From NCBI GenBank assembly GCA_028288025.1, contig JAQBOM010000037.1:112061-176060 (forward strand): a stretch of DNA of 64,000 nucleotides, in the 5' to 3' direction. The stretch is from Mucilaginibacter sp. GTDB taxonomy: Bacteria; Bacteroidota; Bacteroidia; Sphingobacteriales; Sphingobacteriaceae. The position numbers and the translations under genes were made by a program. Of this stretch, positions 24,070-30,197 are shown piece after piece. Numbering within the stretch: the stretch's first letter is position 1; each line of letters begins with the position of its first letter. The notes below the pieces were generated by a model, which saw only the letters and a list, made by a program, of their open reading frames with translations, was not told the DNA's origin and searched no databases.

Positions 24070-24819
24070 TTAAATGGAAATCAACGACTCCAGGTTCCAG
24101 CTTTTTACTTCTTCGATGGTGATATGGCCTTCGTAAATCGCCTTGCCCACTACACAGGCTTCCACCTTAATATTGCTCAGCTGCTCAATGTCATCCATTG
24201 AACTTACGCCGCCTGATGCGATAAGTTTTATGAAAGGAGAGTGGTCAAGCAGTTTTTCATAGAGGTCGATCCCTGCTCCACCGAGCTTGCCATCTTTATT
24301 AATATCAGTACACAAAAACCGAAAGAATCCTAAAGCAAGGCATTTGTCAACGTAATCCATCAGTTTGATAGGCGAGCTTTCCATCCAGCCGGAATATTTG
24401 ATCACTTCGTCCAGCACATCGATTGCTATTACCACCTGGTCCGAACATTTATCCCTACCGCAAATTTCCTTGCTCAGTTCTTCCAGGAAAGTCGGATTGG
24501 TTATGGCCTGCGTACCTACAATAACACGATGAACGCCGGCATCTATCAGTTCTTTGACCTTGTCAATGCTTCGTATACCGCCGCCATATTGTACCTGCAT
24601 GTCCGTTTTACGGATCACATTAAATAAGTATTGCTGGTTCGAGAAATCGTTTTTTGCGCCGTTTAAATCGATAATGTGGATCAGATTGGTACCGTAGGAA
24701 TGATATCTTTCTATCATTTCTTCGAGGGTAACATCGTACTCAGTAACCTGTTGATAGTCGCCCTCGCGTAAACGAACAACTTTTTTATCTAGAATATCTA
24801 TTGCCGGAATAATGTACAT
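24070..24819 (-). CDS. hisA: Phosphoribosylformimino-5-aminoimidazole carboxamide ribotide isomerase
   Basis: MYIIPAIDILDKKVVRLREGDYQQVTEYD; QYGGGIRSIDKVKELIDAGVHRVIVGTQAI. Confidence 0.96.
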   Translation of the reverse strand: MYIIPAIDILDKKVVRLREGDYQQVTEYDVTLEEMIERYHSYGTNLIHIIDLNGAKNDFSNQQYLFNVIRKTDMQVQYGGGIRSIDKVKELIDAGVHRVIVGTQAITNPTFLEELSKEICGRDKCSDQVVIAIDVLDEVIKYSGWMESSPIKLMDYVDKCLALGFFRFLCTDINKDGKLGGAGIDLYEKLLDHSPFIKLIASGGVSSMDDIEQLSNIKVEACVVGKAIYEGHITIEEVKSWNLESLISI

Positions 24820-24824
24820 GGCTT

Positions 24825-25415
24825 TCAGAGTTTTGAAAAATTTGTGAGTAGGATTTCACCATACGCGCCGGATTTTTCGGGGTGGAATTGTACCCCGTAA
24901 AAGTTATCCCGCATAATTGATGCCGAAAATTTGGTGTTATAAGTTGCTGATGATAAAGTATATGCAATATTATACTCAATAAAGTATGAATGTACAAAGT
25001 AAAAGTGTGATCCAGCGGGAATATCTTTAAAAAGTTTATTTTCTTTTTCAGGATAAACCCGGTTCCAACCGGTATGCGGCACTTTGTATTCGACGCCGTT
25101 TGCAAATCTAAGTGTATTTATCGGGAAGAGGCCTAACAATTTTGCATCACCTTCTTCTGAATGAGAAGTTAGTAATTGCATGCCTACACAAATGCCCAGT
25201 GTAGGTTTGTTAAGCGCCTTTATTTTCGGCACCAGCCCGGTTTGCTCCAGCTTATGCATGGCCGCGCCCGCATGACCGACGCCGGGTATGATATAGCGGT
25301 CAAACTTTTCAAAATCCTGCTCGTCATTGATCATGCCATAGGCAATACCCAGCCGGTTTAATGCTGCTGTCAATGAAAAAATATTCCCTGCCCCGTAGTT
25401 TATTATGCCTACCAT
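24825..25415 (-). CDS. hisH: Imidazole glycerol phosphate synthase subunit HisH
   Basis: IINYGAGNIFSL; PTLGICVGMQLLTSHSEEGD; FYGVQFHPEKSG. Confidence 0.96.
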   Translation of the reverse strand: MVGIINYGAGNIFSLTAALNRLGIAYGMINDEQDFEKFDRYIIPGVGHAGAAMHKLEQTGLVPKIKALNKPTLGICVGMQLLTSHSEEGDAKLLGLFPINTLRFANGVEYKVPHTGWNRVYPEKENKLFKDIPAGSHFYFVHSYFIEYNIAYTLSSATYNTKFSASIMRDNFYGVQFHPEKSGAYGEILLTNFSKL

Positions 25416-25433
25416 GTGTTTTTAGTTGCAATA

Positions 25434-25470
25434 GAAGCAGTAGCAGTCAATCGAAACTGCCACTGCCACT
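25434..25470. repeat. Short-word inverted array in the hisB-hisH spacer (GCAGTAGCAGT / ACTGCCACTGCCACT)
   Basis: GAAGCAGTAGCAGT (25434-25447) against ACTGCCACTGCCACT (25456-25470); right arm overlaps the hisB stop codon. Confidence 0.65.
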
Positions 25471-26620
25471 ATAAAACTCCTTTAGTTGACGGTAAAACCA
25501 TCTTATTTACATCACGTTTAACGGCCATTTTTATTGCCTTGGCAAAGGCTTTAAATATCGCCTCAATTTTGTGATGTTCATTTTCGCCTTCGGCTTTAAT
25601 ATTTAAGTTGCATTTCGCCGCATCGGAAAAGGATTTGAAGAAATGGAAAAACATTTCCGTCGGCATCTCACCTATTTTTTCACGCTTAAAATCCGCATCC
25701 CAAACTATCCAGTTTCGTCCGCCAAAGTCAAGCGCCACCTGCGCCAGGCAATCATCCATGGGCAGGCAAAAGCCATATCTTTCGATGCCTTTTTTATCAC
25801 CTAAAGCCGCGCCAAAAACCTCACCCAATGCTATACCGGTATCTTCAATGGTATGGTGCTCGTCGATGTGGAGATCGCCGTTTGCGATTATCTCCAGGTC
25901 AATATTCCCATGCCGCGCGATCTGGTCGAGCATGTGGTCGAAAAAGTGCAACCCGGTTGATACTTTGGCATCACCTTTACCATCGAGGTTTATTTTAATA
26001 TAGATATCGGTTTCTTTAGTAGCCCGGCGATGTTCGATCACCCGTTCGCCCAGTTTTAGAAACTCGTATATCTTTTCCCATTCGGAAGTTTCAAGCACTA
26101 TGGTGCTTTTTACGGCTTCTTCTTCGGCTGGTCCGCTAAATTCCTGGTTCCCTAAATTTGTGTTATTATTCAGCCAGATGGCCTTTGCACCTAAATTATG
26201 GCCAAGTAAAATATCATTTTTGCGGTCACCGATGGTGTACGAGCCTTTCAGGTCATATTTTTCGGTATCGAAATATTGCTTAAGCATGCCTGTTCCCGGC
26301 TTGCGGTTAGGCGAGTTTTCGGCCGGGAACGACCTGTCAATGCAAATATTCGAAAATTTAACCCCTTCGTTTTCAAATGTTTTGAGGATGAAATTCTGAA
26401 CCGGCCAAAAAGTGTCTTCCGGGTATGATGCTGTACCCAAGCCGTCCTGGTTGGTAACCATCACCAATTCGTAATCTAACTCCTTGGCAATTTTTGGCAG
26501 GTACTGCAATGCGCCCGGGTAAAATTCCAGTTTCGCAAACGAATCTATCTGCTCATCTACCGGCTCTGTTATCATGGTACCGTCGCGGTCAACGAAAAGT
26601 ATTTTCTGCAGCTTGCTCAT
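25469..26620 (-). CDS. hisB: Bifunctional histidinol-phosphatase / imidazoleglycerol-phosphate dehydratase
   Basis: N-terminal HAD ([12 protein letters not shown]) plus C-terminal IGPD ([32 protein letters not shown]). Confidence 0.97.
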
Positions 26621-27663
26621 TTGAAATCTTGTAAAGTTTGAATTAATTTTTTGTTTTCATCGGGTGTGCCGACAGTTATGCGCAAACAGCCGACGCATAG
26701 GTCCACCTTTGAACGGTCGCGTACAATGATACCCTTTTCAACCAGGAAATTATAGATGCCCCGCGGGTCGCTTGTTTTCACAAGTATAAAATTGGCGTCC
26801 GACGGATAGATATCCAGTACAAAGTCGAAATCTTTTAACTGTAAAACCAGGTTATCCCTTTGTATCAGCGTTTCTTTGATCCAGGCGTTTACCTGGTCGA
26901 TGTTGGCAAGCGCCTGTAAAGCCAATTGCTGCGAAGCCTCATTGATATTATAGGGCGGCTTAACCTTGTTCATTACCTCGATGATCTCTTCGCTGGCAAA
27001 GGCCATACCTATGCGCAGGCCGGCAAGTCCCCAGGCTTTTGATAAGGTTTGCAAAACCACCAGGTTGGCGTATTCAGTTAGTTCCTGGATAAAGGTTTTC
27101 TGCCTGCTGAAGTTGATATAAGCCTCGTCAACTACCACCAACCCGTCGAAATTTGCCAGCAGGGTTTCCACGTCGGCCCGGTTAATTGAATTGCCGGTTG
27201 GATTGTTAGGAGAGCAGACAAAAATGAGTTTTGTATGTTTGTCAATTGCTTCAGCAATACCTTCCAAATTAAGTTGAAAATCCTCAGTAAGCGGCACATT
27301 GCGCACCTCCACATCATTGATGTTTGCCGAAACCTTGTACATGCCATAGGTAGGGGGAACCAGTATCACATTATCGATACCCGGGTTGCAAAAGCTGCGG
27401 AACAGGATATCGATAGCTTCATCACTGCCGTTACCCAAAAATATATTGCGGGGCGGTACGCCTTTGATCTCGCTCAGGCGTTTTTTAACCTCGTATTGCA
27501 GCGGGTCGGGGTAGCGGTTAAATTGCTGTGCCAATGGCGAGCCGTAGGCGTTTTCATTCGCATCCAAAAATATGCTTGCCTCTCCCTGGTACTCATCCCG
27601 TGCGGATGAATAGGGAACAAGGTTTTTGATGTTTTCGCGTAGTATATTATTTATTGTGAACAT
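26617..27663 (-). CDS. hisC: Histidinol-phosphate aminotransferase
   Basis: [46 protein letters not shown]. Confidence 0.96.
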
Positions 27664-27682
27664 TTTCTTAATTCTTCTTTAT

Positions 27683-27777
27683 GTCATTGCGAGCGATAGC
27701 GCGGCAATCTCTTCGCTTATAAGTCAGCGCTTATTGTAGTTCTACGAGTTTGCTTCGTCGTTCCTCCTCGCAATGAC
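27683..27777. repeat. GTCATTGCGAG...CTCGCAATGAC palindromic intergenic element (95 bp) in the hisD-hisC spacer
   Basis: 11-bp perfect terminal inverted repeats; ends shared with the elements at 49280 and 51374. Confidence 0.8.
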
Positions 27778-27787
27778 AAGGTGTTTA

Positions 27788-29071
27788 TCATTTAATTCTC
27801 ACACTCACCGCATTCTTATGTGCATGCAAGCCTTCTAACTCCGCCAATATCTCTACCGAAGGCCCTATATTTTGTATGCCTTCCGGCGTTATATGCTGGA
27901 ATGTTATTTTCTTCACAAACGAATCAACCGATACGCCCGAATAGGCCCTTGAATAAGAACTTGTCGGCAAAGTATGATTGGTCCCTGATGCGTAGTCGCC
28001 TGCGCTCTCGGGGGTTAAATTTCCTAAAAATACTGAACCGGCGTTGAGGATGCTTGTAGTTATCAGTTGCCAGTTTTTAGTCGCCAATATCAAATGCTCC
28101 GGCGCATACTGATTGCTGAAAGCCATGGCTTCATCCAGCGTGTTTGTAATTATGATATAGGAGTTCTCCAATGCTTTAGTCACGATCTCAGCACGCGGCA
28201 AAACAGGAACTTGCTTTTCAACCTCGGCCAAAACTGCTTCGGCGATTATTGCTGATGTGCAAACCAAAATCGACTGGCTATCCATGCCGTGTTCAGCCTG
28301 TGCTAATAAATCAGCAGCAACGTAAACAGGGTTGGCAGTTTCATCTGCAATAACCAATACTTCTGAAGGCCCCGCCGGCATATCAATAGCTGTTGTGGTG
28401 GTGGATTGGATGATGGTTTTAGCTTTGGTAACAAACTGGTTCCCGGGGCCGAATATTTTATCCACTTTAGTTATGGTTTCGGTACCATAGGCCATGGCTG
28501 CTACAGCTTGTGCGCCGCCTGCCAAATAAATTTTTTCTATCCCAAGGAGTAATGCCACATAGGCGATAAATGCATTAACCTTCCCATTCTTTTGCGGAGG
28601 CGAGCAGACCACAATTTCGTGACAGCCTGCGATGAGCGCAGGTATACCGAGCATTAAAAACGTGCTTGGCAATACTGCGGTGCCGCCCGGTATATATAAA
28701 CCCACTTTTTCAACCGGCCTTATTTCACGCCAGCAGGTTACACCCGGCATGGTTTCTATTTTATCCTCCGGCTTTAACTGCGCGAGGTGGAATTTGTAAA
28801 TGTTATTGTAAGCTATCTGAAGCGCTTCTTTTTGAGTTGGTGAAACTGTCGAAGCAATATCTTCAAGCTCTGTTTTATCCAGGTATAACTTATCCAGCTC
28901 AACCTTGTCAAACTTCATGGCGTAGTCAAGCAAGGCGCTGTCGCCATGTTCTTTTACATTGGCTATAACATCCTCAACAATATCCCGTATCTCATTTGCC
29001 GGATCAACATTACGCTGAACCAGGGTCTGGATATCCTTTTTGGTTAGATCTGAATAATTATATTGCTTCAT
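27788..29071 (-). CDS. hisD: Histidinol dehydrogenase
   Basis: [46 protein letters not shown]; start trimmed to internal Met ([13 protein letters not shown]). Confidence 0.97.
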
Positions 29072-29074
29072 GTC

Positions 29075-29133
29075 AGTTTGCACTGGGCGATTTGCAGTTT
29101 GCAGTTGCAGAAAAATACTGCCCACTGCCAACT
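29075..29133. repeat. Short-word inverted array in the hisG-hisD spacer (TTTGCAGTTTGCAGTTGCAG / ACTGCCCACTGCCAACT)
   Basis: Arms separated by about 6 nt; right arm abuts the hisG stop. Confidence 0.7.
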
Positions 29134-29134
29134 C

Positions 29135-29986
29135 TTATAAAATTATCTTCTCAATAGGCATTACCACAATGCCCTGCGCGCCCGCCTGTTTGAGCTGGCT
29201 TATCCTATCCCAAAAATCACGCTCAGGGATCACGGTGTGAACCGCTACCCAATTCTCCTCCGCCAACGAAACCACCGAAGGGCTTTTTACCCCCGGCAGT
29301 AAAGCAATAATAGCCGGCAGGCTATCGCGGTGAACGTTGAGAACTACGTATTTGGTTTCCTTTGCACGTAAAACGGACTGCACGCGCTGGATGAGTTCCT
29401 GTACAAGGTCCGAATTTTCGGAGCCTTTGCTGCCGATCAGCACCGCTTCAGACGACATTACATCCGCGAAAGCGGTCAAACCATTGCTTTTCAACGTGCC
29501 GCCGGTTGATACCAGGTCGCATATCGCATCGCTTAAGCCCAGGCCGGGTGATATCTCGACCGAACCTGAAATGGTACGAATTTCGGCTTGAATCGCATTC
29601 TTTTTCAGGAACTTGTCTAAGATAACCGGGTACGTGGTAGCAATCGACTTGCCGTTTAACTGGCTTAACTGCTGTATCTGGTTGTTATTCGGTACTGCAA
29701 TTTTCAACGAGCATTTACCGAAACCCAGTTTTTGCAGGTAAGCCACATCCACCTCAGTTTCCTGTATTACGTTTTCGCCTACAATGCCCAGGTCGGCAAT
29801 GCCATCCTGTACATATTCGGGGATATCATCATCACGCAAAAAAAGAATTTCGAGCGGAAAGTTAGATACGGGAGAGATGAGCGAGCTTTTATAATTTTCG
29901 AAATTAAGGCCGCAATTTTTTAATAATTCAACGGATTTTTCGTTGAGGCGACCAGATTTCTGTATCGCTATTTTAAGTGTTTTCAC
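29135..29986 (-). CDS. hisG: ATP phosphoribosyltransferase (GTG start)
   Basis: LKIAIQKSGRLNEKSVELLKNCGL; DLGIVGENVIQE; ISPGLGLSDAICDLVSTGGTLKSNGL. Confidence 0.96.
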   Translation of the reverse strand: MKTLKIAIQKSGRLNEKSVELLKNCGLNFENYKSSLISPVSNFPLEILFLRDDDIPEYVQDGIADLGIVGENVIQETEVDVAYLQKLGFGKCSLKIAVPNNNQIQQLSQLNGKSIATTYPVILDKFLKKNAIQAEIRTISGSVEISPGLGLSDAICDLVSTGGTLKSNGLTAFADVMSSEAVLIGSKGSENSDLVQELIQRVQSVLRAKETKYVVLNVHRDSLPAIIALLPGVKSPSVVSLAEENWVAVHTVIPERDFWDRISQLKQAGAQGIVVMPIEKIIL

Positions 29987-30048
29987 TGATTGATTTTATG
30001 GAGCTATAATAAAAAGTATAAACGGGGTTTGTTATTTCGCGTAGAAAC

Positions 30049-30106
30049 ATACATTATCTGATCACCACATGGTGGTGATGGTGCAGATGGGGATGATATA
30101 ATGTAT
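30049..30106 (-). promoter_or_regulatory. Putative his attenuator: nested inverted repeats spanning the His codons
   Basis: ATACATTAT (30049-30057)/ATAATGTAT (30098-30106); ATCTG (30056-30060)/CAGAT (30084-30088); ATCACCAC (30061-30068)/GTGGTGAT (30072-30079). Confidence 0.6.
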
Positions 30107-30116
30107 AACCGTTCAT
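30054..30116 (-). CDS. Putative histidine-rich leader peptide of the his operon: MNGYTLYHPHLHHHHHVVIR
   Basis: Minus-strand ATG AAC GGT TAT ACA TTA TAT CAT CCC CAT CTG CAC CAT CAC CAC CAT GTG GTG ATC AGA TAA; 7 of 20 residues His; upstream of hisG and behind a canonical promoter. Confidence 0.85.
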   Translation of the reverse strand: MNGYTLYHPHLHHHHHVVIR

Positions 30117-30126
30117 TTTTTATATT

Positions 30127-30154
30127 GTAGAGACGCAATGTTTTGTGTCTCTAC
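30127..30154. repeat. Hairpin GTAGAGACgCA-ATGTTT-TGtGTCTCTAC in the his leader 5' end
   Basis: Arms match 10 of 11 bp. Confidence 0.7.
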
Positions 30155-30166
30155 TGTTGAGCAGTG

Positions 30167-30197
30167 CAAATATAGGCAGTTGTTTGTGAAATCAAAA
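30167..30197 (-). promoter_or_regulatory. Promoter of the his operon (-33 TTTTG, 18-nt spacer, -7 TATATTTG)
   Basis: Plus-strand CAAATATA (30167-30174) and CAAAA (30193-30197). Confidence 0.7.

Follow-up and report, generated by a model that had tools for sequence, protein, structure and literature searches.

Attenuation by a histidine-rich leader is a textbook mechanism of enterobacteria. In the enterobacterial hisL system (RF00514), a short His-rich peptide precedes hisG and the ribosome at its His codons selects between RNA structures. The comparative work of Vitreschak et al. (2004) on Proteobacteria is said to name Bacteroidetes/Chlorobi in its abstract as well. Leader-peptide attenuators of the ermC type need no terminator; there, ribosome stalling frees the initiation region of the gene downstream. 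In Firmicutes, his genes are also preceded by a His-rich leader, reported together with a terminator and an antiterminator, while in some attenuators a structure that sequesters the ribosome-binding site takes the place of the terminator, which is the kind of output that we propose below (PMC9413887). Within the Bacteroidota, a structured element with no Rfam hit and conserved in Flavobacteriaceae lies 5' of hisG in F. psychrophilum, where signs of leader-peptide attenuation were also seen before amino-acid operons (PMC9723704). His-leader attenuation is thus known; the terminator-free form described here for the family Sphingobacteriaceae appears to be new, in that no description of it was found in the literature searched, subscription journals being outside its coverage.

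The window, that is, the whole stretch of DNA analysed, comprises 64,000 nucleotides from a Mucilaginibacter sp. genome (contig JAQBOM010000037.1) and carries an operon in the order hisGDCBHA downstream of a 20-residue leader peptide (Table 1). The leader contains 7 His, five of them in a row (codons CAC CAT CAC CAC CAT), its stop codon is separated from the hisG GTG (29986) by 67 nt, and AATATAAAAA lies directly 5' of its ATG. The first-pass annotation had described a 21-codon ORF with these His codons and this spacing, preceded by TTTTG-N18-TATATTTG and an A-rich stretch, and every one of these features is present in the sequence. It had also called the ORF very unlikely by chance. In a scan of ORFs of 8-45 aa on both strands of the window (n=1563), the leader had 7 His per 10 residues and no other ORF exceeded 4; in 12 simulated windows matched in dinucleotide content, a single ORF reached 6 and none reached 7, in agreement with that judgement. 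The locus therefore has what characterises a ribosome-mediated amino-acid attenuator, a short His-codon-rich ORF 5' of a his biosynthetic operon, although gene callers with a length cutoff overlook the peptide. The hisF gene is placed on another contig, apart from the his operon and behind an unrelated gene (L241, G000:C34:32246-32932). No second His leader was found before this separate locus, so part of the histidine pathway seems to be outside the control of the leader.

Table 1. Features of the his leader region and operon, in window coordinates.
Feature	Position	Strand	Evidence
hisD, hisC, hisB (bifunctional), hisH, hisA (remaining operon)	24070..29134	-	
hisG, GTG start	29135..29986	-	NCBIfam TIGR00070
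P1' 3' strand, CCGUUUAU	30018..30025	-	Pairing with AUGAACGG in the window
P3 hairpin, GUUUC-UACGC-GAAAU	30034..30048	-	Alignment, covariation
Px 3' strand, UAAUGUAU	30049..30056	-	Pairing tests
His leader peptide ORF, MNGYTLYHPHLHHHHHVVIR (ATG at 30116, stop ending at 30054)	30054..30116	-	Sequence, conservation in relatives, His-composition scan
P2 hairpin, AUCACCAC-CAU-GUGGUGAU, 5' arm formed by His codons	30061..30079	-	Alignment, covariation
Px 5' strand, AUACAUUA	30099..30106	-	Pairing tests
P1' 5' strand, AUGAACGG, spanning the leader start codon	30109..30116	-	Pairing of leader nt 1-33 with the post-P3 segment, Mucilaginibacter, p=0.0002
Palindrome in the his 5'UTR, GTAGAGAC-N12-GTCTCTAC, dispersed element	30127..30154	-	Genome copies, comparison with relatives
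Promoter, TTTTG (30197-30193), 18 nt, TATATTTG (30174-30167)	30167..30197	-	Sequence; TANNTTTG in 83/83 relatives

To compare the locus with its relatives, hisG was sought in the named genomes plus another 200 of the family and 300 of the phylum, and the upstream regions were read. Wherever the upstream sequence was long enough, the named loci of Mucilaginibacter and Sphingobacteriaceae all have a His-rich ORF before hisG, with 4-8 His in about 15-20 codons and ending 52-76 nt before the gene. The leader was found at 145 non-redundant loci of the family and was missing at 2; other genera of the family carry clear yet divergent versions (e.g. MNIVFTHHVHFHHRFAAM or MKRLLTTLHHLHHHHCGDVI), and His-rich leaders are also found in most other sampled families of Bacteroidota. 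With the leader conserved across family and phylum, comparison gives very strong support to its predicted role as a histidine sensor in attenuation. The leader sensing histidine that the first-pass annotation had proposed for the operon thus gains from the relatives, in which the His ORF is kept while its sequence drifts and a conserved promoter lies upstream. The other sign to be sought in the relatives, synonymous substitution, is not clean. Across codons 7-13 of the Mucilaginibacter leaders, pairwise differences are ~0.23-0.25 at positions 1 and 3 and 0.10 at position 2, a pattern that fits selection on His/Leu codons but falls short of a clean synonymous signal, as these bases are also paired in the RNA. 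Separately, neither hisG nor the leader motif was detected in small genomes of genera g6, g11, g23 and g24 (G005, G010, G023, G024 and others), which are probably histidine auxotrophs.

The predicted promoter upstream of the leader is, by its sequence, of the Bacteroidota type. All 83 of 83 non-redundant family members carry its TANNTTTG element 5' of the leader start codon, in most cases at a distance of 29-33 nt, and transcription would start ~5-8 nt downstream of the promoter. The 5'UTR of the window holds a palindrome at the site where relatives have the 5' strand of a long-range helix, P1 (see below). Two further exact copies of this palindrome are found elsewhere in the genome and related palindromes occupy the same 5'UTR site in two other sampled species (L002 and L009/L082); close relatives, L003 and L006 among them, lack it.

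We then looked at the hallmark of the classical transcription attenuator, a terminator between the leader and the first gene. A scan for hairpins at least as stable as -8 kcal/mol and followed by a U-tract detected an intrinsic terminator after the leader in 0/145 leader regions of the family, window included. Elsewhere in the phylum, 30 loci from nine families (Flavobacteriaceae and others) combine the leader with an antiterminator and an intrinsic terminator, and the terminator is present after almost every leader of the flavobacterial families and of several others. At these loci the last leader codons pair with the 5' arm of the terminator (own duplex -13.9 versus -9.4 kcal/mol when permuted, p=1e-4). 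The 'classical' attenuation named in the first-pass annotation therefore describes the sister families and not the family of the window, which shares with them the phylum, hisG, the His-rich leader and the promoter type but has neither the terminator nor the antiterminator made from the last leader codons. The same absence sets it apart from the Firmicutes systems and from enterobacterial hisL, from which it also differs in its helices P1, Px, P2 and P3; the Proteobacterial His_leader family RF00514 had no match at gathering score in the window, nor did any Rfam T-box riboswitch match there. Families f23 and f8 and a few single samples are mostly terminator-free as well, with other structures. 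The f8 leaders (L165, L180, L184) end in ..HHFHHSS and that of f9 (L181) in ..GHHSS. In these leaders a hairpin (e.g. ATTCCTCTTGAGAGGAAT) spans the stop codon and no terminator was detected; they may represent a third architecture of his attenuators. Another variant is seen in f23 (L192, L200, L206, L207, L213, L214), with long leaders that start with GTG, contain 8-11 His in two separate clusters and have no terminator.

The comparison that shows the leader, the promoter and the absence of a terminator also shows four predicted helices, P1, Px, P2 and P3. The leader-region RNA that they form is, as predicted, unlike the classical architecture and absent from Rfam, no family of which matches the window at this region. 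In P2, the final His codons provide the 5' arm (AUCRCC, as AUCACCAC or AUCGCC), and the 3' arm is GGYGAU or GUGGUGAU, kept as RNA while changes in loop length shift the reading frame (VVIR, PLWR, CGDR, FAAM, or a stop in the loop). P3 is GUUUC-UACGU-GAAAC in the family and GUUUUG-UACGU-CAAAAC in genus g18. In 48 sequences, 96% of the cells of P2 and P3 pair and the covariation score is 0.258 versus 0.120 for shuffled alignments, 0/500 of which reach it. P2 shows a G-C/A-U exchange in 19/48 rows and P3 shows C-G/G-C and G-C/U-A exchanges; the core alignment agrees, and the changes recur in several genera, with relatedness explaining part of them.

P1 joins the 5'UTR adjoining the leader ATG to the segment just before hisG, as in AAUCAG-GAACCAA with UUGGU-CUGAUU or AAUUAUUAAAAAAGAC with GUCUUUUAUUAAUAAUU, and in several genera its 3' strand ends 9-16 nt before the gene. 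In the full-length MAFFT alignment, RNAalifold found P2 and P3 but missed P1. Since the strands of P1 differ in sequence between genera, a cross-genus permutation test was used instead, and pairing with the own partner was stronger than with that of another genus (-10.9 versus -7.9 kcal/mol, 14 genera, p=5e-5); in addition, six pairs show two-sided changes in the alignable genera. Px, between the first 33 nt of the leader and the linker plus P3, gave p=5e-5 between genera and 0.0008 within Mucilaginibacter by permutation. A candidate pairing of leader GUUUUCAC with GUGAAAAC at the hisG start had no cross-genus support (p=0.72) and was dropped.

A covariance model of the core matches 116/151 genomes of the family, once each save for one genome with two matches on separate contigs. 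The matches lie just upstream of hisG in ~40 genomes whose coordinates were compared by eye, several genera with no match have no hisG either, and 120 genomes of the phylum outside the family gave only a few weak matches. The window contains P2, P3, Px and a closing helix of the Mucilaginibacter type, P1'. Its P1 proper reaches only -2.0 kcal/mol, because the palindrome replaces the 5' strand, so P1' may be the only closing helix on which the mechanism depends in this strain. As for exceptions, genera g3, g5 and g8 have another structure, and two Mucilaginibacter loci (L218, L222) retain the leader (MNGFNIHHLHLHHRTK) but have lost P2 and P3, a natural test of the need for RNA structure. In genus g22, the leader frame of one locus (L129) continues through P3 to 26 nt before hisG, giving 33 codons.

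In order to follow the effect of ribosome position, we imposed ribosome footprints on the folding. Outside Mucilaginibacter (30 sequences), P3 was predicted with a probability of 0.86 for a ribosome stalled at the first His, against 0.03 for ribosome-free RNA and 0.15 for a ribosome at the stop codon; the corresponding values in Mucilaginibacter were 0.81, 0.58 and 0.10, a weaker switch. When leader nt 1-33 were swapped from another genus or codon-shuffled, P3 with no ribosome rose to 0.44-0.49 outside Mucilaginibacter, so there the anti-P3 pairing is specific. Px and P3 are predicted by this folding, with the cross-genus tests in support, to be mutually exclusive structures chosen by the position of the ribosome. 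The cost of opening the hisG initiation region, on the other hand, was near constant over ribosome positions (5.4 kcal/mol free versus 5.2 at the first-His stall), and a simple accessibility switch of this region was not reproduced by equilibrium folding. A switch in output would appear only if the ribosome sterically blocked the adjacent closing helix. We favour such a block because of the short distance from the P1 3' end to hisG, the GTG or TTG start of hisG in 82/83 relatives, and the finding that Bacteroidota initiation makes no Shine-Dalgarno use and is tuned by structure at -20..+20 (PMC6847099). The stalled ribosome would thus keep the closing helix from forming and open the hisG initiation region, making translation the probable output.

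We consider it somewhat more probable than the other readings taken together that the locus is a terminator-free, ribosome-mediated histidine attenuator of hisGDCBHA, acting most likely at hisG translation initiation. With ample charged tRNA-His, the ribosome would finish the His-rich leader and depart, and the leader RNA would then close into a long rod, held by Px between the first half of the leader and the linker plus P3, capped by P2, and sealed by a closing helix, either P1 or the P1' of Mucilaginibacter, that joins the 5'UTR or the leader start to the segment before hisG. This rod would hinder initiation at the weak GTG/TTG start, the off state. With histidine scarce, the ribosome would stall at the first His codons, covering leader nt about 1-36, and so block Px and P2, permit P3 and stop the closing helix from forming, the on state. 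Against this reading stand the near-constant opening cost of the hisG initiation region, the weak P1 of the window, the P3 that already forms to a large extent in ribosome-free Mucilaginibacter RNA, and the few relatives without P2 and P3 or with another structure. The stall and the lack of a terminator recall the ermC type, a likeness of mechanism and not of sequence or structure; the ermC type senses an antibiotic, whereas our leader would sense charged tRNA-His.

The main alternative, clearly less probable but to be taken seriously, is a terminator-free transcription attenuation in which finished translation of the leader exposes the linker to Rho or causes the polymerase to pause, and a stalled ribosome and P3 prevent it. 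The leader-antiterminator-terminator switch of the sister families implies that the ancestral output was probably transcription, and the Mucilaginibacter linker is C-rich and unstructured; many other genera, however, have a linker that is not C-rich, a P1 reaching so close to hisG in several genera is unneeded by a Rho mechanism, and a terminator-like hairpin with a U-tract is absent from the 145 family members. It is improbable that the leader serves, when translated, simply to increase initiation at hisG through re-initiation, as a coupling or standby ORF whose His-richness acts only as a brake. Short upstream ORFs have been proposed to boost initiation at about 10-14 nt from the gene (PMC4833913), but the stop-to-hisG distance of 52-85 nt in the core set is beyond this peak, and the specific His enrichment before hisG would be left unexplained. 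Marginally less probable again is a classical attenuator whose terminator was missed, such as a weak AU hairpin followed by a U-run in Mucilaginibacter, whose linkers do contain U-runs (in the window TTTATACTTTTTATTATAG, about 30022-30004); against it, none of the 145 regions has a hairpin of the required strength before a U-tract, and other genera of the family have no long U-runs in the linker, or have them with no hairpin. A functionless chance ORF is all but excluded; it has nothing in its favour and is already refuted by comparison, the leader being kept across the phylum and its composition far outlying.

Returning to the attenuator acting at hisG initiation, we give an even chance to its extension to the family, namely that hisG translation in Sphingobacteriaceae is governed by an unlisted P1-Px-P2-P3 RNA family built around the His leader, and that this lineage kept the sensor peptide of a phylum-wide transcription attenuator while exchanging its output for a terminator-free, probably translational one. 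His-leader attenuation appears to extend through the phylum Bacteroidota, whose ribosomes work without Shine-Dalgarno sites, and to have at least two output architectures. An amino-acid-sensing leader of this kind would serve for studying the control of initiation without Shine-Dalgarno pairing, and the family, which keeps the sensor without the terminator, would offer a natural series for studying how a regulatory output changes while its sensor stays.
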